The position numbers and the translations under genes are program-made. Shown one piece after another: positions 20,044-55,009 of a stretch of 64,000 nt of DNA (positions within the stretch are counted from its first letter, which is position 1; the number at the start of each line of letters is the position of its first letter). The notes beneath the pieces are model-generated. The model was not told where the DNA came from. It ran no database searches and was given only the letters and a program-made list of their open reading frames with translations. The DNA is from Acidobacteriota bacterium (GTDB lineage: Bacteria > Acidobacteriota > Terriglobia > UBA7540): NCBI GenBank assembly GCA_902812465.1, contig CADDZE010000006.1:1-64000 (forward strand), read 5' to 3'.

Positions 20044-21546
20044 TTACAGATGGGTGCGAAGGGAAGGGCGTTCCGAGTGCCACCTGGCCAGCCGTATCTT
20101 CCTCACCGCCTGCCGGTGGGCGCCCCCGGTTTCCCTGCTTGCGGCGGTCGATTTCGATTCTTGCCCCTCGCGTTCTAAGCGAATGGTGCCGTAAGCAGTG
20201 GAGAGGCGAATCAGCGGTCCTCCCTTGCCCACGCTGCCGGCGATGGTCGGCGCTTCTCCTTCTTTGATCACCTTCAGGGCTGGACCCGAGAAGTCGCATT
20301 CGACTGCGCCGTGAAGAGACTTAGCATCGATCTGGAAGCTGCTGTTCGGCGGCAGGGCCAGCGAGATTTCGCCCTTCTTGGACTCCACCTCGATGGGGTG
20401 GGTGGGGGGCACGGCAGCGCTCAGGGAAATGTCGCCATTCGTGTCAACGATCTTGACGCTATGCTTGAAACCTTCCAGACGGATGTCCTTCTCGCGCGTT
20501 GAAAGGTCGAAAGGTCCATCCAACCCCGTAGCTTCGAGCGATCCCACCTCCATGCTGAGCCGCCCAACCAGCTTCTGGGCGGTGAGTTCGGTGCGCGAGG
20601 AGGTGAAGCGCAAGGTTTGGGCGATCTTGGCAAATTGGACGGTGCCGGGATATTCGCCGCTAACGCTTACCGTTCCAGTCACGTTGGCAATTTCGATGTC
20701 CTGCCCGCGCCCTTCCAGTTCTACGTTGCCCGTGATGTCGCGAACTTCTGCGTCCCCTCCGGATTTGCGGATGCGTACGAGCCCCTCGACTCCGCTCACG
20801 CGCACGTCGCCATGATTGGCGGTCAGTGACTGCTCGCCCTGAAGCCCGTTCAGGCTGATGTCACCGTGCTCCGCCGTGATCTCCGCCGAGGTCTTGGGCG
20901 GCACGTGGAGCGTGATGTCTAACCGCACATTTCGGCCTCCATTAGGCAGCGCATCGAGGTTGGACTGGAGCAAATAATGGTCTCCTTGCTGGGCGATCGC
21001 CAGCTTCAGTTGGTCGGAAAGCTTGCGAGCTTCATCCTCGCTCTCAGCGTGAATCGTCTCCTTCACGATGGCTTCTACCATCCCCTGGTCCGAAGGATGG
21101 ATTTCCACGTCGCCGCGCCGGTTGACCACGATCAAGTGAGGCTGAGCGCCCACGGGCTGGGAGAAGGTCTTGGTGAAGGTGTAGGAATTGAAGAAGAGGC
21201 TATTCCATTCGTCGTTGTCCAAGTTGACCGGACTCCAGTCGCGCCACGAATGCAAAACGATCTTCGAGACCATAGTGCCCAGCACAAGCAGAAGAATCAG
21301 CAGCACCACCTCGCCGCCGGAAAACAGCGAGTAGGGAGCCGCCTCCGGATGGCGGCGGGCGTGGGCGTAGTCTATCAGCTTCGAGACTCCCCAGAAAATG
21401 ATCAGCACCGGCCAGAACTTAGCAATGATCTGCCAGGGATGAACGGACGGGTTGAAATTCTGGTAGAGAAAGAGCGCACCCAGGGAAATCAGGATCAGCG
21501 CCCAGAAAATTGACGCACGCCGGTAAGAGTATACGTACGTGTTCAT
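20044..21546 (-). CDS. DUF4097 adhesin-like protein with LiaI-type membrane N-terminus
   Basis: A 500-aa protein, last gene of the ECF operon. The N-terminus has a two-helix LiaI/DUF5668-like hairpin (ASIFWALILISLGALFL then FWPVLIIFWGVSKL, about 12-55) and a third membrane helix (VVLLILLLVLGTMV, near 80). From about 190 to 480 it is a DUF4097-type repetitive beta structure with short turns such as AEHGDISLNGL, ANHGDVRVSGV, KSGGDAEVRDI and SKKGEISLAL. These are thought to form surface beta-solenoids; LiaF-like proteins of Firmicutes combine similar parts in cell-envelope stress sensing. ATG 21546 was chosen at the start of the membrane hairpin; the upstream ribosome site is weak. Confidence 0.85.
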   Translation of the reverse strand: MNTYVYSYRRASIFWALILISLGALFLYQNFNPSVHPWQIIAKFWPVLIIFWGVSKLIDYAHARRHPEAAPYSLFSGGEVVLLILLLVLGTMVSKIVLHSWRDWSPVNLDNDEWNSLFFNSYTFTKTFSQPVGAQPHLIVVNRRGDVEIHPSDQGMVEAIVKETIHAESEDEARKLSDQLKLAIAQQGDHYLLQSNLDALPNGGRNVRLDITLHVPPKTSAEITAEHGDISLNGLQGEQSLTANHGDVRVSGVEGLVRIRKSGGDAEVRDITGNVELEGRGQDIEIANVTGTVSVSGEYPGTVQFAKIAQTLRFTSSRTELTAQKLVGRLSMEVGSLEATGLDGPFDLSTREKDIRLEGFKHSVKIVDTNGDISLSAAVPPTHPIEVESKKGEISLALPPNSSFQIDAKSLHGAVECDFSGPALKVIKEGEAPTIAGSVGKGGPLIRLSTAYGTIRLEREGQESKSTAASRETGGAHRQAVRKIRLARWHSERPSLRTHL

Positions 21547-21660
21547 AGCCTGAACCCAGTGACCAGCGGCAGATGGGCCTTCAGGAGCAGCCACCGGCCG
21601 ATTCGCGCGATGACTGCTCCCGTCTGTCGCCAGTCGAAAGGTCGATCGACGAAGGCTTGC

Positions 21661-21897
21661 TCACTCGTCACTCCTCCTCCACACCTTCGGGCCCTCCGGA
21701 CCTCGCGGAGGCTGAAACGCGTCCCATAACTTAAGCATCCCCAAAACCACCAAAATCAGCGGCCAGGTTCGGCGAAGCCCCCATTCCGGCACGAGTTCTT
21801 GGAAGAGAAAAAGCACGCCGATCAAAATCAGCAATACCGGCCCTGTGAGGTTGGTTCGGTGGCGCCCGGTACTGGGCGATGGCATTTCGGCGCTCAC
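21661..21897 (-). CDS. LiaI-like two-helix membrane peptide
   Basis: A 78-aa protein with the LiaI/DUF5668 hairpin only: GPVLLILIGVLFLFQEL (about 19-35) and TWPLILVVLGMLKLWDAF (about 44-61), then a short charged tail. It starts at GTG 21897, or at ATG 21885, 12 bp downstream. It resembles the N-terminus of the following DUF4097 protein and the C-terminus of the B-box protein in the same operon, suggesting duplication of this module. Its role is unknown; in Firmicutes LiaI is a small membrane partner of stress sensors. Confidence 0.75.
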   Translation of the reverse strand: MSAEMPSPSTGRHRTNLTGPVLLILIGVLFLFQELVPEWGLRRTWPLILVVLGMLKLWDAFQPPRGPEGPKVWRRSDE

Positions 21898-21965
21898 TTC
21901 TCAGTGGTGCGTTCCTCGACCGGCGACTGCTTGTCCGCACCTGTCACCGGCAAGCCCTCTGCCCG

Positions 21966-22187
21966 CTAGACCTTGTCTGCCGGCCGTGTCGCTCGAGTCC
22001 TTTCGATTTCCAGTTCCAGCTCCTTCATTCGGCGCTGATGCTCCATCTCGCGAATCCGCAACTCCTGGTGAGCCTGCAGCTCCCGTTCACGCCCCTTGAA
22101 CCAGTAAACGATAAACACGATCGCCACGATCATCGCGGTACCCGCGATCGTGCCGACGATCGGAATCATTAAGGGCGAATCGAACAT
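21966..22187 (-). CDS. Small membrane-anchored coiled-coil protein (paralogue 3)
   Basis: A 73-aa protein: one membrane helix (IVGTIAGTAMIVAIVFIVYWF, about 9-29) followed by a charged coiled coil with REMEHQRRMKELELE. The start ATG 22187 is fixed by GGGAGGGAGG. It is the most diverged of three tandem paralogues (22520-22747 and 22264-22485), with a different N-terminus. The layout (short outside end, one helix, cytoplasmic coil) recalls PspB/PspC-like small envelope-stress proteins, but no direct homology is claimed. Confidence 0.8.
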   Translation of the reverse strand: MFDSPLMIPIVGTIAGTAMIVAIVFIVYWFKGRERELQAHQELRIREMEHQRRMKELELEIERTRATRPADKV

Positions 22188-22263
22188 GCTGCACCTCCCT
22201 CCCAGGTCGGTCCGCTGCAGGAGCTGATCGTTCTTGTCACCGTCCAGTGCGCTTGACACACCG

Positions 22264-22485
22264 CTACTTCTGACCCAGCCTGGCCTTTTCTACCTCGAGT
22301 TTGGCCATCTCAATCTCCAGTTCCTTCATTCGGCGCTGGTGCTCCATTTCCCGGGTACGCATTTCCTGATGCATTTGCAGCTGGCGGTGGCGGCCTTTAG
22401 ACCAGTGGATAATAAACACGATTGCCACCACCATCGCGGTCCCGCTCAGCGGTCCGATAATCTCAGGTCTCAGCAAGGCGTCCAT
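22264..22485 (-). CDS. Small membrane-anchored coiled-coil protein (paralogue 2)
   Basis: A 73-aa protein from ATG 22485, with GAGGAGAG upstream. It opens with MDALLRPEIIGPLSGTA, nearly the same as paralogue 1, then a membrane helix (about 17-30) and a coil with RTREMEHQRRMKELEIE. Separate ribosome sites for each paralogue show that all three are meant to be translated. Function is not known. Confidence 0.8.
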   Translation of the reverse strand: MDALLRPEIIGPLSGTAMVVAIVFIIHWSKGRHRQLQMHQEMRTREMEHQRRMKELEIEMAKLEVEKARLGQK

Positions 22486-22519
22486 AACTCTCTCCTCGGG
22501 CCCAGGCACCCTCTCAGGC

Positions 22520-22747
22520 TTAGTTCGGCGTCCGCTCCGACCTCGCCCTTTCCAACTCTGATTTCGCCTTCTCAATCTCGAGCTCTTTCAGCCGGCGCTC
22601 GTGCTCCATCTCGCGGGTCCTCAGCTGCTGGTGCACTCCCAGCTCTCGCTGACGAGCCTTGTACCAGAAGACGATCCAGACGACAGCAATGATCATCACG
22701 ATGCCACTCAAGGGTCCGAGGATGTTAGGCCGCAGCAGTGCGTCCAT
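22520..22747 (-). CDS. Small membrane-anchored coiled-coil protein (paralogue 1)
   Basis: A 75-aa protein from ATG 22747, with GGAGGAA upstream. One membrane helix (GPLSGIVMIIAVVWIVFWY, about 11-29) is followed by a long charged coil (RTREMEHERRLKELEIEKAK). First of three tandem copies, lying 86 bp behind the B-box/LiaI gene in the ECF operon. The coil would allow homo- or hetero-oligomers with paralogues 2 and 3 (inference). Confidence 0.8.
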   Translation of the reverse strand: MDALLRPNILGPLSGIVMIIAVVWIVFWYKARQRELGVHQQLRTREMEHERRLKELEIEKAKSELERARSERTPN

Positions 22748-22833
22748 CGAGCGTTCCTCCGGAACTCAAATTCTCCTGTTTGGTCGTGGCCTCGAGCCGT
22801 TTCTCTCCAGCCTGGCCGACCGCCGCCTTCAGA

Positions 22834-23484
22834 TTATGTAACCTGATTCGTGCCTGAGCCGGACTGGGGCGGTCCCGCACCTCCGCCCACACGCCGCTGC
22901 AACAGCAAGATGCCAATCACAATCAGCAGCACCGGCCAAAACTTGCCGATGCTCTCGAAGACATGAATTCCAAGATTGTCGAGCAGGAACAACGCTCCCA
23001 GCCCAATCAGCAGCGCCGCCCCGATGGGCGCGTTCAGCTTGAAGTCGCCAAAGCCCAACCACTCCTCGACGGGCTGGCCGAGGGCTTTGCGCTTGGCGGT
23101 CTGGTAAGAATCGATCACCATGTAAAAGTAGAAAGCGGCGGCACCTAAGCCGAAGATGGTGTCTAGCGGTCCGCCCACCCGGTCGCTGATGGCAATGAGC
23201 GATCCGAAAAGCAGCACTTGCACCATACCCTTCATGACTTGACCGTTGTAAATGGCGCCCACACCGGGGATGAAACCCAGGAAGAGGGCCAAGCCGGGGT
23301 TGGGACCAGTGCCCGTCCTCGGACCGAGAATGGGCGACAGCGCTGGAGACTGAAGGCGCGCCGCTAAGCAGGCTTCGCAATACACCATGCCTGCTACCTC
23401 CCGCTTACATTCGGCACAGAGCGCCTTCCCGCACTGCCCGCAAAAGGCCACCCGATCGGCCAGCGGATGGTTTGCACATTTCAT
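22834..23484 (-). CDS. B-box zinc-finger membrane protein with LiaI-like C-terminus
   Basis: A 216-aa protein. The N-terminus is a B-box-type zinc-binding region: C3, H6, then FCGQCGKALCAEC and YCEAC (about 3-42). Next come hydrophobic segments with FLGFIPGVGAIYNGQVMKGM (about 69-95), a TM2-like pattern, and a C-terminal LiaI/DUF5668 hairpin (ALLIGLGALFLLDN and FWPVLLIVIGILLL). ATG 23484 overlaps the stop of the anti-sigma gene as ATGA, which fixes the start and implies translational coupling. It probably senses or organises membrane state together with the anti-sigma factor (inference). Confidence 0.82.
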   Translation of the reverse strand: MKCANHPLADRVAFCGQCGKALCAECKREVAGMVYCEACLAARLQSPALSPILGPRTGTGPNPGLALFLGFIPGVGAIYNGQVMKGMVQVLLFGSLIAISDRVGGPLDTIFGLGAAAFYFYMVIDSYQTAKRKALGQPVEEWLGFGDFKLNAPIGAALLIGLGALFLLDNLGIHVFESIGKFWPVLLIVIGILLLQRRVGGGAGPPQSGSGTNQVT

Positions 23485-24161
23485 CGCGTTGTACCCCCAT
23501 GGGCAGCACCCCGAAGGGCTGTGGGAACCGGGCTGTCTGCACCCGCGTCGCGGGTCAGACATGCTAGCCAGGGGGACACAGAGCCATCGAACTGGGTCGA
23601 GCCCGGTCCGCCCTTCCGCGGCGCCTCCCCCGGCGTCTCTTCAGGGCGGTTCAGCTGGCTTTGGCTTCGAAGCGTGCGCAGCCAGGCCTCGGTTTCGTAG
23701 ACCACCCGCAGGTCGTAATAGAACTTTTCCGCCCGCGCCACGAGCAGATGCCCACTCCGATTAGCCTGATAGGCCCACGTGCGCGGATTCAGATCGGCTA
23801 GCCGGAAGTGCCTCAGATTCACTCCTGCCGCACTGAAAATCACTGAAAATGAAAACACAGCCATCAGCACGGGATAGGCAACGCGCGGCTGCAGCACTTG
23901 GCGCGCCGCCCCGAAAACCCGCTCGACAAGTGACGGGCGCTGCTGTCCCACCGTCGCTTGCATGATCTTGGCCATCAGCCAAGGAGGCGGTTCCAAGCGC
24001 TCCGCCGTCTGGCAACATTCCATAGCATGCCGCACTCCCGCCACCAGGTCGCGGCAGTCGGCGCAGCCCGCCAGGTGCTGGTCCACCTGCGCGCGAAGGG
24101 CGGCGTCCAAGAGGCCTTCGAAGTAGTCACTGGCCAGATTTTCAACTTCGAGGTGCGTCAT
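23481..24161 (-). CDS. Anti-sigma factor with zinc-finger domain and one membrane helix
   Basis: A 226-aa protein. The N-terminal zf-HC2/anti-sigma zinc motif HLAGCADC (H-x3-C-x2-C, about 30-37) would hold the partner sigma factor. A membrane helix (YPVLMAVFSFSVIFSAAGV, about 95-113) follows, then a soluble region with no recognised domain. Its start (ATG 24161, or GTG 24170) lies inside the end of the sigma gene (20-bp overlap), the usual sigma/anti-sigma arrangement. Confidence 0.87.
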   Translation of the reverse strand: MTHLEVENLASDYFEGLLDAALRAQVDQHLAGCADCRDLVAGVRHAMECCQTAERLEPPPWLMAKIMQATVGQQRPSLVERVFGAARQVLQPRVAYPVLMAVFSFSVIFSAAGVNLRHFRLADLNPRTWAYQANRSGHLLVARAEKFYYDLRVVYETEAWLRTLRSQSQLNRPEETPGEAPRKGGPGSTQFDGSVSPWLACLTRDAGADSPVPTALRGAAHGGTTR

Positions 24162-24753
24162 CGCTTTCACTTTGTCGCCCAGGTACCCTCATCTTTTCCA
24201 TACGTTGGATGAGCCGAGCAAGTTCCAGTCTTCCACGGTTAATCCGCGACTTGACGGTGCCCAGGGGAATACCCAAAATCTGGGAAATCTCCTCGTAGTC
24301 GAGCTCCTGAAAATCGCGCAGAATCACTGCCTCGCGCATGTCCGGCGACAGTTTCTCCAGCGCCCGCTGCACCAACTCCTGCCTTTCGCGGGACGCGACG
24401 CGGCCTGCCGGGTCATCGTGCACCGCAGTCTGCACCTCCTCCAACCGCGGCAACTCGTCCTCCAGGGGCGACGTAAGCCGGTCTTTGCGTGTGCGCCGGT
24501 AATGATCCACCAGGTGGTTCCGCGCCACACGATGGAGCCAAGTCGAAAAGCTGCCCTGCCTGGGATCATAGGTCCTTAGGGTCTGAAAGATTTTAATAAA
24601 GACCTCCTGGGTTAGGTCCTCCGCCTCAGACGGGCGGCCGGTGAAACGGTAGCACAAATTGTAGACCCGGCGCGTGTGCAACCGGAGCAGTTCTTCCCAG
24701 GCGAGGTTTTCGCCCCCCAGGCAGCGCCTCACAAGGTCGAGGTCTTGTTCCAC
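24142..24753 (-). CDS. ECF (RpoE-like) RNA polymerase sigma factor
   Basis: A 203-aa group 4 sigma factor and first gene of the operon down to 20044. Region 2 (about 22-95) contains YNLCYRFTGRPSEAEDLTQEVFIKIFQ and FSTWLHRVARNHLVDHYRR. Region 4 (about 130-185) contains LSPDMREAVILRDFQELDYEEISQILGIPLGTVKSRINRGR. It starts at GTG 24753 with AAGGA 7-9 nt upstream. A perfect 11-bp inverted repeat lies about 100 bp upstream. Autoregulation is likely for this class but no promoter was assigned. Confidence 0.94.
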   Translation of the reverse strand: MEQDLDLVRRCLGGENLAWEELLRLHTRRVYNLCYRFTGRPSEAEDLTQEVFIKIFQTLRTYDPRQGSFSTWLHRVARNHLVDHYRRTRKDRLTSPLEDELPRLEEVQTAVHDDPAGRVASRERQELVQRALEKLSPDMREAVILRDFQELDYEEISQILGIPLGTVKSRINRGRLELARLIQRMEKMRVPGRQSESDDAPRS

Positions 24754-47961: not shown

Positions 47962-48399
47962 GGAGGCGCCGCTCGTTTGCCTGCCTCGTACTATTCGCAA
48001 TCGAAGCCCATACCCGAAAGCGGCACTTTGCATGGCGAAGTGCTGAGCCAGACCGAAGGGTGCGATCCCACGCCCGGGCGGATGAGAGACCCACAGCAGA
48101 TGCCGTCCGGGGCACCGACCTTGTGTTTTCAACAACCTATCCGGTTCGTTTCGTCAAAACCCCTTTCTCCGCCTCGCCGGTTTGCACTCGCCTCCGGCGG
48201 GGATACGATGTCGACGCCTATTACAAGGCAGACCATGCGAACACTTCCGCCGTCCGCAACGAAGGAGAACGGGGAGCACAAACGGCACGAAAGAGGGGAG
48301 AGGATGCGGCAGAGCCGCTTCACCGAATGACCGGGGGGCCGTGGAGTGGCTGGCAGACCCCCTTACCGCGCCTGAAACGGAATGCCTCAGAAAACTGGC
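47962..48399. other. Intergenic region between APC permease and GH51 genes
   Basis: A 438-bp stretch with repeat copy C (48113-48159). Open frames crossing it have no ribosome site, no family features and overlap one another, so no gene is called. Confidence 0.5.
48113..48159 (-). repeat. Interspersed repeat, copy C
   Basis: On the plus strand it begins CACCGACCT, has 4 variable bases, then TTTTCAACAACC and the core TATCCGGTTCGTTTCGTCAA. It differs from copy B at about three positions in 46 and is inverted relative to it; the two flank the GH51 gene. The unit is itself a loose palindrome (TTTTCAACAACC ... GGTTCG ... TCAAAA). Confidence 0.8.
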
Positions 48400-50052
48400 C
48401 TACGCCAACTCCAAACTGATCGTCGTGTAGGAGCGCGCCGGAACTTGCAGGGTCATCTTCGAACCTGGCGCAGGAGGCTCAAGCGGCTGGGGCACCACCT
48501 GTTTGGGCGCCTCGAAGGTATTAGTCGCTTTCAGGTCCGTGCCCGTCAGCACCTCGCAGACCTTCACCTTGCTCGGAGTCACCTCGTGCCAGACGATTTC
48601 GAGATCGCGCGGCTTTTCGAGGTCGCGGTTGAGGACGAAGAGAACAGCTCGCTTGGCTGCTTGATCGAGCGTGCCCGCCACATCCAGGTAGGGCACCTGG
48701 CCGGGTTCTGCGCCTCGCATACTGACCAAGCCGGCTGGCCTGCCGCGGTCGGGCAAAGGATAGGAGGGTCCTTCCATCGCCAGGTCCAGTGCGCTACCGC
48801 TCGCATGGTGCAGAACCGACGCGTACGGATAATAGATTGTCTGCCGGAGCACGGAGGTCTCGTTGGTCATGAGGGGAGCGATCACGTTCACCAACTGGGC
48901 AAGGCAGGCGACCCGCACGCGGTCGGAATGCCGGATCAGGGTGTTAAGCATTCCTCCCACCAACAGGGCATCTTCGAGGTTGTAGATCTCCTCGAGCAGG
49001 TGCGGATGCTCCTGGCGCTGACCGTTATCAAACTTCGGCCCGCGAGCCCGGTACCACACGTTCCACTCGTCGAAGGAAAGGAAGAGCTGTTTACTGGAGC
49101 GCTTCTGGCTGCGCACCATATCGCCAACATCGATGATGTCCTCGATCTGCCTCTCCATGGACAGGTTCATCGCCAGGTACTTGGAGCTGTCATCGCCAGT
49201 CTCCTCGTCGTTGCCCAGATAGCGGTGCAAGGAGATGCCGTCGACCTCTGGATAACACTCCTCGAGCACTTGGCGGTCCCACTCCAGATAGGTGGGCATG
49301 TACGGACCGCTCGAACCACAGGCAATCAGCTTGAGCGAGCTATCGAGGACGCGCATCTGGCGGGCGGCGTCTGCCGCCTTACGCCCATAGTCGACGGCCG
49401 ACATGTGGCCGATCTGCCAGGGGCCGTCCATTTCATTGCCCAAACACCAGTACTTCACGTTGTGCGGCGCCTCGTAGCCGTGCTGGCGCCGCAGGTCGCT
49501 CCAGCGCGTGCCCCGATCCACGTTGCAGTACTCGACTAGCGCCACGGCCATCTCGACCGTCCCGGTGCCGAAGTTCAGCCCCAGTAGGGGCTCCGTCCCG
49601 ACCAGCCTGCACCAGGTGATGAATTCGTTGGTGCCGAACTGGTTGGGCTCGAGCGTGTTCCAGGCCCGGTCGAGCACAAGCGGGCGGTCCTTCTTCGGCC
49701 CCACACCGTCCAGCCAGTGGTAGCCGGAGACAAAGTTGCCGCCCGGATAGCGCACGATCGGCACGCCGAGCTGCTTGATTTCCGCGGCGACGTCCGTGCG
49801 GTAACCGTTCGCGTCAGCCAGCTTTGACCCTGGCTCATAAATACCCTGATAAATGGCGCGGCCCAGGTGTTCGAGGAACGACCCAAAGAGGCGGCGGTCC
49901 AAGGGCGTCAGCGTTCGTTCCGGATCGATCACCACGCGCGTGGTGGGGCTCGTCTGCGCCCTGAGCAGAGGTCCCCACCAGGCATGGCTGGCCAACGCCC
50001 CACCGGCCAGAGCCGCCTGGCTCAGGAATCGCCTTCTCGGGACACTGGACAT
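48400..50052 (-). CDS. Tat-exported alpha-L-arabinofuranosidase (GH51)
   Basis: A 550-aa glycoside hydrolase removing arabinose side chains from plant polysaccharides. The N-terminus is a Tat signal (VPRRRFLSQAALAGGALA). The GH51 acid/base Glu lies in WCLGNEMDGPW and the nucleophile Glu in LSFDEWNVWY. PGGNFVSGYHW and the C-terminal beta sandwich (YTTISLEL) are typical. ATG 50052 has GGAGGGATT upstream; ATG 50073 is in frame but less likely. Tat export means it folds in the cytoplasm and acts in the periplasm or outside. The gene is bracketed by inverted repeat copies B and C. Confidence 0.93.
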   Translation of the reverse strand: MSSVPRRRFLSQAALAGGALASHAWWGPLLRAQTSPTTRVVIDPERTLTPLDRRLFGSFLEHLGRAIYQGIYEPGSKLADANGYRTDVAAEIKQLGVPIVRYPGGNFVSGYHWLDGVGPKKDRPLVLDRAWNTLEPNQFGTNEFITWCRLVGTEPLLGLNFGTGTVEMAVALVEYCNVDRGTRWSDLRRQHGYEAPHNVKYWCLGNEMDGPWQIGHMSAVDYGRKAADAARQMRVLDSSLKLIACGSSGPYMPTYLEWDRQVLEECYPEVDGISLHRYLGNDEETGDDSSKYLAMNLSMERQIEDIIDVGDMVRSQKRSSKQLFLSFDEWNVWYRARGPKFDNGQRQEHPHLLEEIYNLEDALLVGGMLNTLIRHSDRVRVACLAQLVNVIAPLMTNETSVLRQTIYYPYASVLHHASGSALDLAMEGPSYPLPDRGRPAGLVSMRGAEPGQVPYLDVAGTLDQAAKRAVLFVLNRDLEKPRDLEIVWHEVTPSKVKVCEVLTGTDLKATNTFEAPKQVVPQPLEPPAPGSKMTLQVPARSYTTISLELA

Positions 50053-50641
50053 AATCCCTCCGCTGGGCTCCATGACGCCGGCCGTTCAGCCGGGCTCTGG
50101 GCATCCTGCCCGGAGTGAGAAACCGGACGCGGGTGAGCGTGTTAGGGCTTGGCCCGGCGCCGGACCGTTCGATTAATCGTTTAAGCGCAACCCGCGACCC
50201 GAACCGTTTACCCTGACCCTCCCGTCCTTGTCAAGCTCTTTCTCACTTTTGGTGTAAGCCTTGTAAACTACGTACACCGCGTAAACTTTGTGTGGACCGT
50301 ATTCTGCCCTGGGCCAGAACGCCCGCCCCGGACATGCCGAGATACGATTTGACGAAACGAACCGGATAGGTTGTTGAAAATTCGAGGTCGGTGTCTGGAC
50401 TAGAGCGCGCCGGCAGGTCAAAATACGCGTGAAAGTGCAAGACGCCCAGGGGAAACTGCCTGCCCACTGGCGAGGGCACTGGGACTGAACACCGAGCGAG
50501 GTCACAGCACCCCTTCCGACCCCCGCTAGAACCGCCTCCGGTCACCCGCCGCCGGGCCCCGGAAGACACTGCGCCTTTGGGCTCACCCTTTCCTCCGTGG
50601 CGCGTCTAACGAACTGGGACGGCAGGAAACAAAGATTTCCG
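50053..50641. other. Intergenic region upstream of GH51 and the second ECF gene
   Basis: A 589-bp divergent region containing repeat copy B (50348-50392) and imperfect GTAAACT direct repeats around 50260-50290. No gene could be supported. It must contain the promoters for both the GH51 gene and the second ECF module, but none was clear enough to call. Confidence 0.5.
50348..50392 (+). repeat. Interspersed repeat, copy B
   Basis: Begins TTTGACGAAACGAACCGG and continues to GAGGTCGGTG. Same sequence as copy C, on the opposite strand, over about 46 bp with about three mismatches, and the same core as copy A. Confidence 0.8.
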
Positions 50642-51271
50642 ATGGATGGCGCTTGCTTGGAGCTGGCCGGCAAAATCCCTGCCGAGAGCTCGCCGCTGGC
50701 GGGGACGGACGAGTCTGCCCTGGTCCGGCGGGCCCAGGCTGGCGACCGCACCGCCTTTGACGCCTTAGTGCGCCTTTATGACCGGGAAGTGCTGCGGCTG
50801 GCCATGCGGGTAGTAAAGTCAGAGGATGAAGCGGCAGACCTTTACCAGGAAGCTTTCTTGAAGGTCTATCGCTCGCTCGGGCGGTTTCGCTTCGAGTCCA
50901 GCTTCTCCACCTGGCTCTACCGCGTCGTGGTCAATGTGTGCCTGGACCATCTGCGTCGGCAGAGGAGCCGCAACGAGGTGCAGCCGCCGGAGCAGGAGCC
51001 GGGTGAGCCGGAATATTTTCACTCGCTCGCCGATCCTAACCCCGGCCAGCACCCAGAGCAGGCCCTGCGAGCACGCGAGATTGGGGGACGCATTCATGCG
51101 GCGTTGGAACAGCTGACTCCTCGCGAGCGGATGGTTTTCGAATTGAAGCATTACCAGGGATTGAAGCTGCGCGCCATCGGTCAGCTTTGTGGCACTACCG
51201 AGGAGACAGCTAAGAACTGCCTGTTTCGTGCCACGCAGAAATTGCGCAGCTGCCTGGCCGATCTTCTGTGA
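50642..51271 (+). CDS. ECF (RpoE-like) RNA polymerase sigma factor, second module
   Basis: A 209-aa group 4 sigma factor. Region 2 (about 35-110) has FDALVRLYDREVLRLAMRVVKSEDEAADLYQEAFLKVY and FSTWLYRVVVNVCLDHLRR. Region 4 (about 150-205) has LTPRERMVFELKHYQGLKLRAIGQLCGTTEETAKNCLFRA. It is clearly different from the sigma factor at 24142-24753. ATG 50642 is preferred over the in-frame GTG 50597; the ribosome site is weak. It heads the genes for anti-sigma, DUF4097 and PDZ proteins. Confidence 0.93.
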   Translation: MDGACLELAGKIPAESSPLAGTDESALVRRAQAGDRTAFDALVRLYDREVLRLAMRVVKSEDEAADLYQEAFLKVYRSLGRFRFESSFSTWLYRVVVNVCLDHLRRQRSRNEVQPPEQEPGEPEYFHSLADPNPGQHPEQALRAREIGGRIHAALEQLTPRERMVFELKHYQGLKLRAIGQLCGTTEETAKNCLFRATQKLRSCLADLL

Positions 51272-51328
51272 GTGACGAAGGGTCACCGTAGGTTTGGCCA
51301 GTCACCTCACTTGATGGTAAGGACGGCT

Positions 51329-52279
51329 ATGGTGTGTGAGGAAATTGAAGCCAAAATGACGCTCTATCTCTACGGTGAGCTGCCGGACTCCGAGTGCGCT
51401 GCTGTGGAAGAACACTTTGCGGCCTGTGCGGACTGCGCCAGGCACGCCGCGACTGCCCGGCGGTTGCAGCAGCTACTGAACCAACAGCCGGTGGCGGAGC
51501 CCGCTCCCGAACTTCTTGTCCATTGCCGGCAGGCCCTGGAGGTCGCCTTAGACTACGAGCAGCTCGGCTGGCACAGTCTTCTGCGCGACTGGACGCCGGC
51601 CTTGAGCCTTTCGCATCCTTCGGGCATCGTCGCCGTCGTCGGCCTAGTCATCTTTGGTTTCGGCCTGGGGTGGACGCTGCGGCCGCAGACCGGCCGCGTC
51701 CATACCGCCGCCCCTGCTCAGGCCTCGTCCCAGGCCACCCTGGCCGATCTGAGCGGCGCCCGGATCAGCGCAATTCGCCAGGTGGCTCCCGATCCAGAGA
51801 CGGGCGGCGTGAAAATTACGCTGGACGCTGAGCACCGGGTGACCATGGAAGGGTCGCTCGATGACCCCCGCATCCGCGACGTGATGCTCTACGCGCTTCG
51901 CAGCTATTCGAATCCCGGGATCCGTTTGGACACCCTCGAGGCGTTGCGCTCCAAGGTGGATACGCCCGCGGTGCAGCCCGCTTTCCTCTACGTGCTGCAG
52001 CACGATCCCAACTTGGGACTGCGCATGGAGGCCCTGAATGCCGTCCGGAAGACGGATTGGAATCCGGAAGTGCGGGGCGCCCTGCTGAACGTCGTCGAGC
52101 ACGACAAGAATCCAGGGCTGCGGGGTGCAGTGGTGGACGAGCTGTCGAGGCGCGCCCTGCAGCAGCACGACCTCCAGGTGATCCAGGAACTGCAGCGGCT
52201 GGCCGAAACGGACAGCGACCGCTACGTGCGCCAGAAGTCCCTCAGCGCCCTAGTCGCTTTGGGGGCCGCCGGGCCGTAG
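51329..52279 (+). CDS. Anti-sigma factor with exported HEAT-like repeat domain
   Basis: A 316-aa protein. The N-terminus is a zinc-finger anti-sigma domain with HFAACADC (H-x3-C-x2-C, about 30-37). One membrane helix (SGIVAVVGLVIFGFGLGWTL, about 97-116) follows, then from about 165 to 310 a set of helical repeats such as RDVMLYALRSYSNPGIRLDTLEALRSK and PAFLYVLQHDPNLGLRMEALNAVRK, resembling HEAT repeats. The repeats would lie outside the inner membrane, where they could bind a ligand or partner protein (inference). ATG 51329 has AAGGA upstream; a GTG at 51272 directly follows the sigma stop. Confidence 0.85.
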   Translation: MVCEEIEAKMTLYLYGELPDSECAAVEEHFAACADCARHAATARRLQQLLNQQPVAEPAPELLVHCRQALEVALDYEQLGWHSLLRDWTPALSLSHPSGIVAVVGLVIFGFGLGWTLRPQTGRVHTAAPAQASSQATLADLSGARISAIRQVAPDPETGGVKITLDAEHRVTMEGSLDDPRIRDVMLYALRSYSNPGIRLDTLEALRSKVDTPAVQPAFLYVLQHDPNLGLRMEALNAVRKTDWNPEVRGALLNVVEHDKNPGLRGAVVDELSRRALQQHDLQVIQELQRLAETDSDRYVRQKSLSALVALGAAGP

Positions 52280-52378
52280 ATGGCGCGGTACGGCTTCATC
52301 GCCCGCCAGTCGCGGCGTGAGCTGGCGCTGAGCGGGGTCAAGAGGCTGGCAGCACAGAAAATATCGACAGGAGTAACC

Positions 52379-53788
52379 GTGAAAGTCCGAGCCGTATGGC
52401 TGCTAGGGCTAATCGCTGCCGCAGGCATCGCGGTGGGGAGAGGGGAGGACTCGCGCATCAAGCGCGGCCCGCTCCAGCACCAGGGACGCCTCTGGGTACA
52501 GGAAGTGCGGTATTCCGAAGCCGTCCCGGACGGCAGCCTGCTGCTGATGCAGGCGGACATTGGCTCAATTCGCGTTCAGCCGGGAGCATCCGGGCAACTG
52601 GAATGCGTGGCCCGTTTGCAGCTGTACGCTGGCAGCGAGGCGGAGGCTCGCAACGTCTTCGACCGCTTTGCGATGGTAGTGAGACGCACCAACGGCGGCA
52701 TTTACCTCAGCGGCCGTTCGCCTTCCGGGCGGCGCTCACCCCTCTGTCTCGCCTTTGATGTGCGCGTCCCCTTGCGCTTCAACCTCAACCTGGAAACGCA
52801 GGGTGGCAACGTCGATGTCGGGCAGCTCAACGGCGAATTGCGGGTCGTCACGGCGGCTGGTGACGTGCGCACCGGTGACGTGACCGGGCCGGTGCGGGTG
52901 GAGACCGCTGGCGGGTCCGTCGATCTGGGCAATATTGGCCACAGTGTGGAGGCCCATTCGGCCGGAGGACGCATTCACGTCGGCGACATTCAGGGCGACG
53001 CAACGCTGGAGACAAGCGCAGGTGACATTCTGGCGGGCGTGATCCGGGGAAGGGTCCGGGCACAAACCGCTGGCGGCGACATTGTGGTGCGCGCCGCGCA
53101 GGGTCCTGTCATGGCTCAGACGGAGGGAGGCCAGATTCAGTTGGGGCAATGTGGCGCGTCGGTGCGCGCCCGAACCGCCGCGGGAAGCATCCACCTGGCA
53201 GGAGCCAGAGGCCTGGTGGAGGCGCAGACCGCGGGAGGCGGCCTCGATCTGCTTCAGCTAATGAGCGCGGTGCGCGCGGAGACGGCAGCCGGTCCCATTC
53301 TCGCCCAGATTGACGCCAGTCCGCAGACGTTCCGAAACTCTTCCCTGGAGAGCTCGGCGGGTGACATCCAGGTGCTTCTGCCTCCCACCTTGCCGGTCAC
53401 CCTGAACGCCGTCATCGATAACTCTGCAGGTCACCGAATCCTTACGGACTTCCCGGTGACGGTCGGCAGCCAGCAGTACGGATTGGCCAGCGGGGAGGTG
53501 CACGCCCACGGCGCGGTAGCGGGCGGCGGTCCGCTGCTCAACCTTCACACTAACATGGGCAACATCGAGATCCGCAAGATGGACGCACTTACACTGGCGC
53601 GGCTCAAGCAGGCACAGGATGCCTTGCGGAAGTCGTGGCAGGTGCGTTGGCAGGACCATCAAGAACAGTTGCGCCAGCTTCGCGAACAACTTCACACTCT
53701 GGAAGAGGCAGCGGAGAAGGCGCGAGAGCAGCTCCAGCAGAGGGCAAGAGAACAACTGATCGAGCACCAGAAGAGACCGGACGACTGA
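52379..53788 (+). CDS. Exported DUF4097 beta-repeat protein with C-terminal coiled coil
   Basis: A 469-aa protein from GTG 52379, fixed by AGGAG 5 nt upstream; the frame also opens at 52280 but lacks a site. Signal peptide at about 4-20. Residues about 95-400 are DUF4097-type short repeats (VVTAAGDVRTGDV, VETAGGSVDLGNI, AHSAGGRIHVGDI, AQTAGGDIVVRAA), expected to form a beta-solenoid. The last 65 residues are a charged coiled coil (LRQLREQLHTLEEAAEKAREQL). It is the counterpart of the DUF4097 protein in the first ECF module but without the LiaI-like membrane N-terminus. Confidence 0.85.
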   Translation: MKVRAVWLLGLIAAAGIAVGRGEDSRIKRGPLQHQGRLWVQEVRYSEAVPDGSLLLMQADIGSIRVQPGASGQLECVARLQLYAGSEAEARNVFDRFAMVVRRTNGGIYLSGRSPSGRRSPLCLAFDVRVPLRFNLNLETQGGNVDVGQLNGELRVVTAAGDVRTGDVTGPVRVETAGGSVDLGNIGHSVEAHSAGGRIHVGDIQGDATLETSAGDILAGVIRGRVRAQTAGGDIVVRAAQGPVMAQTEGGQIQLGQCGASVRARTAAGSIHLAGARGLVEAQTAGGGLDLLQLMSAVRAETAAGPILAQIDASPQTFRNSSLESSAGDIQVLLPPTLPVTLNAVIDNSAGHRILTDFPVTVGSQQYGLASGEVHAHGAVAGGGPLLNLHTNMGNIEIRKMDALTLARLKQAQDALRKSWQVRWQDHQEQLRQLREQLHTLEEAAEKAREQLQQRAREQLIEHQKRPDD

Positions 53789-53872
53789 TGACGCTGGTCC
53801 GCCGGCCCTGGGATCGCCAGGGCAGGCCTGCTGCTTTCTTCGATCGTCCATAGTCAGTCTTTCGAGGCAACC

Positions 53873-55009
53873 ATGAAAAGACGAATCCGATTTTGGGCGG
53901 GACTCGCTGCGCTTTTGGCCATGGCGACCAGTATGCTCCTGGCCCAGGGCAAACTCGCGTCGAAGGTCCAACTGGCACGGCAAGAACACGCCGCCTCGCC
54001 CACCGCGCCTCCTCAGAATCGTCTGGCGATGCAGATTTTCGGCGATGCACGGACGGCTTGGCTGGGCGTCAAGCTGGAGGATGTTTCAGCCGACGACGTT
54101 AAGGAGCTGAAGCTGCCCGGCGCTTATGGCGCCAAGATCAGCGAGGTCGAGCCCAACAGCCCAGCCTCGAAGGCAGGACTGCAAGCGAACGACGTCATCG
54201 TCGAGTTTGACGGCGAACGCGTGCGTAGCGTCGCGGAATTGCGCCGCTTGATTCGTGAGACCCCGGCGGGCCGCACCGTGAGCGTGCGCGTAGTCCGTGA
54301 CGGGAAGGACCAAAGCGTCCGTGCGACCTTAGAAGAGCGGCGTGGCGAGGGCTTCGGCATAACGATGCCGCCACCCTCGGATTATCGTGTCGAGCCCGTT
54401 CCGCCACTCCGCATGCCGGACCTCTATTTCTTTGGCGGACCGCGCCTGGGCGTTTCCGTGTCCAGCCTCACCCCCCAGCTGGCTGAGTACTTTGGCGTCA
54501 AGGAAGGCAAAGGCGTCCTGGTGCGCGAGGTGACAAAGGACAGTCCGGCAGAGAAGGCAGGGGTGAAGGCAGGCGACGTGATCGTGAAGGTAGACAACCG
54601 GGAGGTGTCCTCCCCCGGAGACCTGCGCAGCGCACTCAACGCCGTTCGGGACAAGCATCAGGTAACCCTGACCATTGTTCGCAACCGGCAGGAGCAAACC
54701 CTGAAGGTCGAATTGCCTTCGTCCTCGGGCCATGGTACCGAAACGTCCGCCGAGGACTGGCTTACTCCGGCGGCTGACGAGCTGGCAGAGCTGGAGGACG
54801 AAATTGCCCAGGTAGCGTCCCGTGAGGCGAACCGCCAGGAGTTGCAGAAGAAAATCAGGGAGCTGCAGCGCCAGGCTCATGACCTGCAACAGAAGCTACG
54901 CGAGGAAGCGCTGACGAAGCAGCGGTTGTGGCAAAAGCAGATGCGCGAGCTTGCAGACCAGCTCCGTCGAGAGCTTGAGAGAGCAGGCGAGGCGGCGCAG
55001 GTAGTTTGA
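53873..55009 (+). CDS. Exported double-PDZ protein with C-terminal coiled coil, no protease domain
   Basis: A 378-aa protein. Signal peptide (about 1-24, ending LAMATSMLLAQG). Two PDZ domains: about 58-150 (AWLGVKLEDV ... PNSPASKAGLQANDVIVEFDGE) and about 190-275 (RLGVSVSSLT ... DSPAEKAGVKAGDVIVKVDNRE). A coiled coil follows (about 300-370, KIRELQRQAHDLQQKLREEAL). It resembles the C-terminal half of HtrA/DegS proteins but lacks the trypsin-like domain, so it would bind C-termini or unfolded chains rather than cut them. It follows the DUF4097 gene by 84 bp; both end in coiled coils. Confidence 0.88.
   Translation: MKRRIRFWAGLAALLAMATSMLLAQGKLASKVQLARQEHAASPTAPPQNRLAMQIFGDARTAWLGVKLEDVSADDVKELKLPGAYGAKISEVEPNSPASKAGLQANDVIVEFDGERVRSVAELRRLIRETPAGRTVSVRVVRDGKDQSVRATLEERRGEGFGITMPPPSDYRVEPVPPLRMPDLYFFGGPRLGVSVSSLTPQLAEYFGVKEGKGVLVREVTKDSPAEKAGVKAGDVIVKVDNREVSSPGDLRSALNAVRDKHQVTLTIVRNRQEQTLKVELPSSSGHGTETSAEDWLTPAADELAELEDEIAQVASREANRQELQKKIRELQRQAHDLQQKLREEALTKQRLWQKQMRELADQLRRELERAGEAAQVV

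Follow-up and report, generated by a model that had tools for sequence, protein, structure and literature searches.

The window analyzed here, i.e. the whole stretch of 64,000 nucleotides from contig CADDZE010000006.1 of an Acidobacteriota bacterium, carries four genes on its + strand in the order sigma factor, anti-sigma factor, DUF4097 protein and PDZ protein. A preliminary description of the same DNA had named these genes in this order, and all four were recovered. The set appears to be a variant of an ECF envelope-stress circuit in which the anti-sigma factor has a PDZ partner without a protease, which points to another mode of perceiving damaged outer-membrane proteins, and the co-occurrence of the four genes is, on sequence comparison, far beyond chance.

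Components of the operon

The first gene (50642..51271, +) encodes a sigma factor with Pfam matches over the cut-offs for Sigma70_r2 (9e-21) and Sigma70_r4_2 (5e-12) and a score over the TIGR02937 cut-off; it has regions 2 and 4 and lacks regions 1 and 3, as is characteristic of ECF (group IV) factors. We placed its start at the ATG at 50642 (MDGACLEL...) because the N-terminus MDG(A/I/V)CLE(L/F) is conserved among relatives; an alternative in-frame GTG further upstream, at 50597, falls within the promoter described below. An assigned ECF group for this factor may already exist, and neither a HEAT-repeat anti-sigma factor nor an operon of this kind was found in the literature searched, which did not include the main ECF classification paper.

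The second gene (51329..52279, +) encodes an anti-sigma factor which matches zf-HC2 (1e-9) and HEAT_2 (2e-11) in Pfam and ends in ...LGAAGP. The zf-HC2 domain is present in 26/26 aligned members, with C3, H29, C33 and C36 invariant, and this Hx3Cx2C zinc domain encoded next to the sigma gene places the protein among the class I anti-sigma factors. In the structural model (mean pLDDT 86.5, above 90 in the HEAT part) the zinc domain is followed by a single membrane helix at about residues 97-117, a disordered linker, a three-stranded sheet and HEAT helix pairs which reach residue 313. A profile search against the PDB matched the N-terminal part to RsiW and a mycobacterial anti-sigma structure, and the C-terminal part to HEAT and alphaRep structures. 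Because the topology is single-pass, the zinc domain is predicted to be cytoplasmic and the HEAT part to lie outside the cytoplasm. The exported HEAT-like repeat region that had been proposed for this protein is thus borne out by the HEAT_2 match, the topology and the model. Other class I zinc anti-sigma factors of the RsrA, RsiW and RskA type share with it the Hx3Cx2C domain, the one membrane helix and the position beside the sigma gene, but not the exported C-terminal HEAT-repeat domain. In two genomes (L104:2667-3951 and L055:5417-6216) the zinc-finger and HEAT parts lie in separate ORFs, which could be either an assembly frameshift or a true split.

The third gene (52280..53788, +) encodes a DUF4097 (Toastrack) protein (PF13349, 1e-6, over the Pfam cut-off), which begins at 52280 or at an in-frame GTG no later than 52385. 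It has a hydrophobic N-terminal export signal and a C-terminal coiled coil; an N-terminal hydrophobic segment is present in 37/37 of the DUF4097 proteins compared. A PDB profile search with this protein gave no match, and Pfam found no LiaI-LiaF-TM, PspC or PspA domain in any of the four operon proteins. In two members of family f6 (L066:5660-7567 and L071:5918-7738) the module's DUF4097 protein carries a fused TonB_C domain at its C-terminus, which gives further support to a periplasmic location of DUF4097. Several relatives, although not the window, possess an additional DUF4097-like gene of smaller size, located after the large one and before the PDZ gene (L046:3634-4653, L049:4286-5101, L051:7523-8416).

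The fourth gene (53873..55009, +) encodes a double-PDZ protein with its own N-terminal hydrophobic export signal and a C-terminus ...EAAQVV. Pfam detected two PDZ domains (PDZ_2, 7e-39) and no peptidase family. In the model two confident PDZ domains (about 54044-54322 and about 54440-54715) are combined with a disordered proline-rich linker and a long C-terminal helix of 78 residues (about 54770-55003), and the nearest solved structures found by Foldseek are the PDZ parts of HtrA/DegQ. The protein had been described as lacking a trypsin domain, and this holds beyond the window: a protease domain was found in 0/21 PDZ proteins scanned, i.e. the window's own and 20 orthologues. With PDZ domains only, the protein falls outside the HtrA/DegS family, which combines a trypsin-like domain with PDZ.

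Both the DUF4097 and the PDZ protein had been said to end in coiled coils, which is correct for the window's family and a few others, while the coils are absent in several further families and so do not define the module. They are, on the sequences compared, lineage-specific and incidental, and we rejected coiled-coil tails as a general interface on account of their poor conservation across the class. The HEAT anti-sigma, DUF4097 and PDZ genes share one reading frame in the window; a readthrough fusion was considered and rejected, the stop codons being ordinary and without any sign of readthrough.

Two other features of the window should be mentioned. A first ECF module (20044-24753, -) consists of a sigma factor, a zf-HC2 anti-sigma factor, a B-box/LiaI-LiaF-TM protein and a LiaF-TM + DUF4097 protein, and is closer than the second module to the Toastrack contexts described in PMC11237479. 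An arabinofuranosidase-like gene (48400-50073) lies between the arms of a 46-nt inverted repeat (48113-48158 / 50348-50393, 93% complementary), as if the repeat bordered a small mobile or repeat element; the core of the repeat was absent from the loci of other genomes searched.

Promoter and predicted regulon

The pattern CTYAC-N15-17-CGTC is common to 54 of the 82 regions upstream of the sigma genes, against a shuffle mean of 0.86. An exact copy of the consensus GCTYAC-N16-CGTCTAA, namely GCTCAC-N16-CGTCTAA, lies in the window at 50581..50609 (+), 32 nt 5' of the sigma ATG. A conserved ECF-type promoter in front of the sigma gene makes autoregulation of the operon probable. The strict pattern gave 19 matches in 39 genomes of the window's family: 16 at the operon, two just 5' of unlinked genes for exported DUF4097 proteins and one elsewhere. 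A stricter pattern run over 250 genomes of the class fell just 5' of the module's sigma gene in 21/22 matches. When we followed the two unlinked exported-DUF4097 genes through their orthologues, GCTNNC-N16-CGTCY was found upstream of 22/46, compared with 2.3% of random stretches and 3.1% of other upstream regions. The window's genome yielded no further regulon target beyond the operon in a relaxed motif search, whose three other matches (vs two control matches) all lie inside unrelated genes.

Conservation of the module in Terriglobia

We surveyed 61 genomes of the class Terriglobia (Acidobacteriota). The majority of the window's family has a HEAT anti-sigma factor, as do most other families. 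Records of the window's family are labelled Acidobacteria "gp13" or Terriglobia. Neighborhoods were compiled from about 100 loci, some of which duplicate one another, and in a typical locus the sigma factor, the HEAT anti-sigma factor, usually a DUF4097 protein, sometimes the second smaller DUF4097 protein, and the PDZ protein are encoded in one direction. A PDZ gene was found in every locus with sufficient downstream sequence, except in family f4 (three genomes), whose module has no linked PDZ gene, and in L076, a distant homologue in family f9. In family f5 the anti-sigma factor was detected in 59/61 genomes and the PDZ gene in 20/20 loci fetched. DUF4097 is missing from the loci of Acidobacteriaceae (Granulicella and relatives), where the PDZ gene is nonetheless kept, directly 3' of the anti-sigma gene; G. 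mallensis and G. rosea are among the cultured Granulicella which carry this core of sigma factor, HEAT anti-sigma factor and PDZ protein.

PDZ and DUF4097 genes lying apart from sigma and anti-sigma genes in relatives would have spoken against a common circuit. Instead, the linkage of sigma factor, HEAT anti-sigma factor and PDZ protein holds throughout the class and, judged from these neighborhoods, is not due to chance. A role of the protease-less PDZ protein as a partner of the anti-sigma factor is well supported by this linkage. DUF4097, being missing in Acidobacteriaceae, is evidently dispensable, and for the same reason we rejected it as an obligate sensor. Its dispensability, together with the sigma promoter motif in front of unlinked copies, makes it look like an output more than a sensor, and exported DUF4097 proteins are likely to be an output of the sigma factor. 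Another ECF factor of the same promoter preference may, on the other hand, drive the unlinked genes.

Candidate PDZ ligands at protein C-termini

PDZ domains bind C-terminal peptides, and several C-termini within the module have the appearance of such ligands. Of 20 PDZ proteins from the window's family, 16 have V, I or L as their own last residue, among them that of the window (...QVV), while the preceding coil varies; the count is 16/19 when L045, a probably truncated protein, is left out. With the window excluded it is 15/19, for which the p-value of 5e-13 is nominal, like all our C-terminal p-values, since the sequences are related to one another, their independence is overstated and simple ORF calls supplied the background. 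The exported DUF4097 proteins, taken as a control, have a hydrophobic C-terminus in 6/37.

In family f5 the PDZ protein has a hydrophobic C-terminus in 13/19, and it is the anti-sigma factor that ends in F or Y, in 30/30 cases against a background of about 4%. These ends lie mostly within [NK]ASxxT[F/Y]-COOH, with one GAS (an example is the tail NASVGTF), and would be PDZ ligands resembling the C-termini of outer-membrane proteins. Aromatic anti-sigma ends are also present in families f3 and f11 and, as PPF, APY, EEF and VEF, in a number of lineages that belong to the window's family or lie close to it. The window's own anti-sigma factor, which ends in GAAGP, has no aromatic residue there, and the anti-sigma ends of the PDZ-less family f4 (three genomes) are dissimilar. 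The anti-sigma factors of Acidobacteriaceae (L106-L147) end almost always in [I/V]Q (DIQ, EIQ), which is conserved, non-hydrophobic and an unusual PDZ ligand. The presence of PDZ-type C-terminal ligands in the circuit favors direct binding by the PDZ domains, as far as residue patterns can tell.

Relation to known circuits

The operon resembles the E. coli sigmaE-RseA-RseB-DegS-RseP circuit in its ECF sigma factor with an adjoining single-pass anti-sigma factor, its periplasmic PDZ protein, its probable autoregulation and the RseP- and HtrA-type proteases in the genome. It differs in that the operon-encoded PDZ domains are on a protease-less protein, the anti-sigma ectodomain consists of HEAT repeats and there is no RseB domain, and exported DUF4097 proteins are found in the operon and the probable regulon. 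Regulated proteolysis of the RseA/DegS/RseP type is thus matched in part: HtrA-type and RseP-type proteases are present in the genome, while no DegS-type PDZ protease accompanies the operon.

A precedent for a dedicated C-terminal aromatic PDZ ligand in an ECF circuit is MucE, a separate protein with a WVF end which activates the PDZ protease AlgW in the Pseudomonas MucA-MucB circuit (PMC8545111). In the present circuit it is the anti-sigma factor or the PDZ protein that bears the ligand-like end, and the PDZ domains come without a protease. Toastrack operons of the Lia/PSP type, for which the domain was argued to be intracellular (PMC11237479), share with our locus a DUF4097 (Toastrack) domain beside a sigma factor in an envelope-stress context, but there is no LiaI-LiaF-TM, PspC or PspA coupling here and Toastrack has an export signal.

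A model for the circuit and its alternatives

From these results we propose, with a probability of about 45%, that this is an autoregulated ECF envelope-stress operon in which the protease-less PDZ protein is the periplasmic partner of the HEAT anti-sigma factor. At rest the anti-sigma factor would keep the sigma factor at the membrane, and the PDZ protein would act as a protease-less clamp reading hydrophobic C-termini. Its ligand in family f5 would be the anti-sigma factor's own ...ASxxT[F/Y] end, and in the window's family more likely its own ...I/V end, with self-inhibition or head-to-tail assembly as a possible consequence. Unfolded outer-membrane proteins expose similar C-termini, which would occupy the PDZ grooves in competition with these ends and alter the complex. 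The sigma factor could then be set free by a change in conformation or, as the conservative choice, by cleavage, first through HtrA-type and next through RseP-type proteases from elsewhere in the genome. Once free, it would increase expression of its own operon and of additional exported DUF4097 proteins, a protective output. This model is supported by the linkage across families, the promoter motif, the ligand-like C-termini, the proteases present in trans, the MucE precedent and the fact that PDZ follows the anti-sigma gene even where DUF4097 was lost, and weakened by the GAAGP end of the window's anti-sigma factor, by the [I/V]Q ends of Acidobacteriaceae and by the PDZ-less module of family f4.

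The preliminary description had suggested sensing by PDZ without an encoded protease. The PDZ part of this idea is in accordance with an operon without a protease, with the linkage and with the PDZ-type ligand ends. Absence of proteolysis, however, does not follow, because three HtrA-type (Trypsin_2) proteases and several M50 (RseP-like site-2) matches are situated elsewhere in the same genome, and cutting of the anti-sigma factor in trans is likely on this gene content. These proteases, together with the single-pass topology of the zinc anti-sigma factor, also leave room for a proteolysis like that of RseA, in which a trans-acting HtrA/DegS-type protease followed by RseP cuts the HEAT anti-sigma factor, the PDZ protein does no more than shield or chaperone, as RseB/MucB do, and what the aromatic end in family f5 attracts is the PDZ domain of the trans protease and not the PDZ protein of the operon. 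We regard this as a tentative possibility, since linkage of the PDZ and anti-sigma genes extends over almost the whole class and the PDZ proteins themselves end like ligands, a feature for which a plain shield would have no use.

It is rather unlikely that the PDZ and DUF4097 proteins are nothing but envelope-protective, chaperone-like outputs and that the HEAT domain or zinc finger does the sensing. The ECF motif serving as the operon promoter and also standing before unlinked DUF4097 genes would fit this, as would the loss of either DUF4097 or PDZ in some lineages, but nearly every family keeps PDZ beside the anti-sigma gene, and families that have PDZ show strong conservation of the anti-sigma C-terminus. 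The reading without any proteolysis, i.e. a purely conformational signal through mutual binding of PDZ, HEAT and coiled-coil parts, is quite improbable: HEAT and PDZ are indeed interaction domains, their linkage is conserved and the operon holds no protease, but the coils are too weakly conserved across the class to be a general binding interface and HtrA- and RseP-type proteases are available in trans.

To return to the clamp model, a more specific form of it would have an outer-membrane-protein C-terminus mimic built into the anti-sigma factor and held by the separate double-PDZ clamp, from which unfolded outer-membrane proteins displace it competitively with no DegS-like switch-on, the mimic having moved to the PDZ tail in the window's lineage. 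This form is speculative and rather unlikely. What the model predicts is that the PDZ-peptide signal known from DegS-type circuits has been separated from the protease and built into the anti-sigma factor or an adaptor. The operon, with its predicted promoter and a first regulon, would then be a class-wide candidate for an outer-membrane stress response in an abundant and poorly understood soil phylum.
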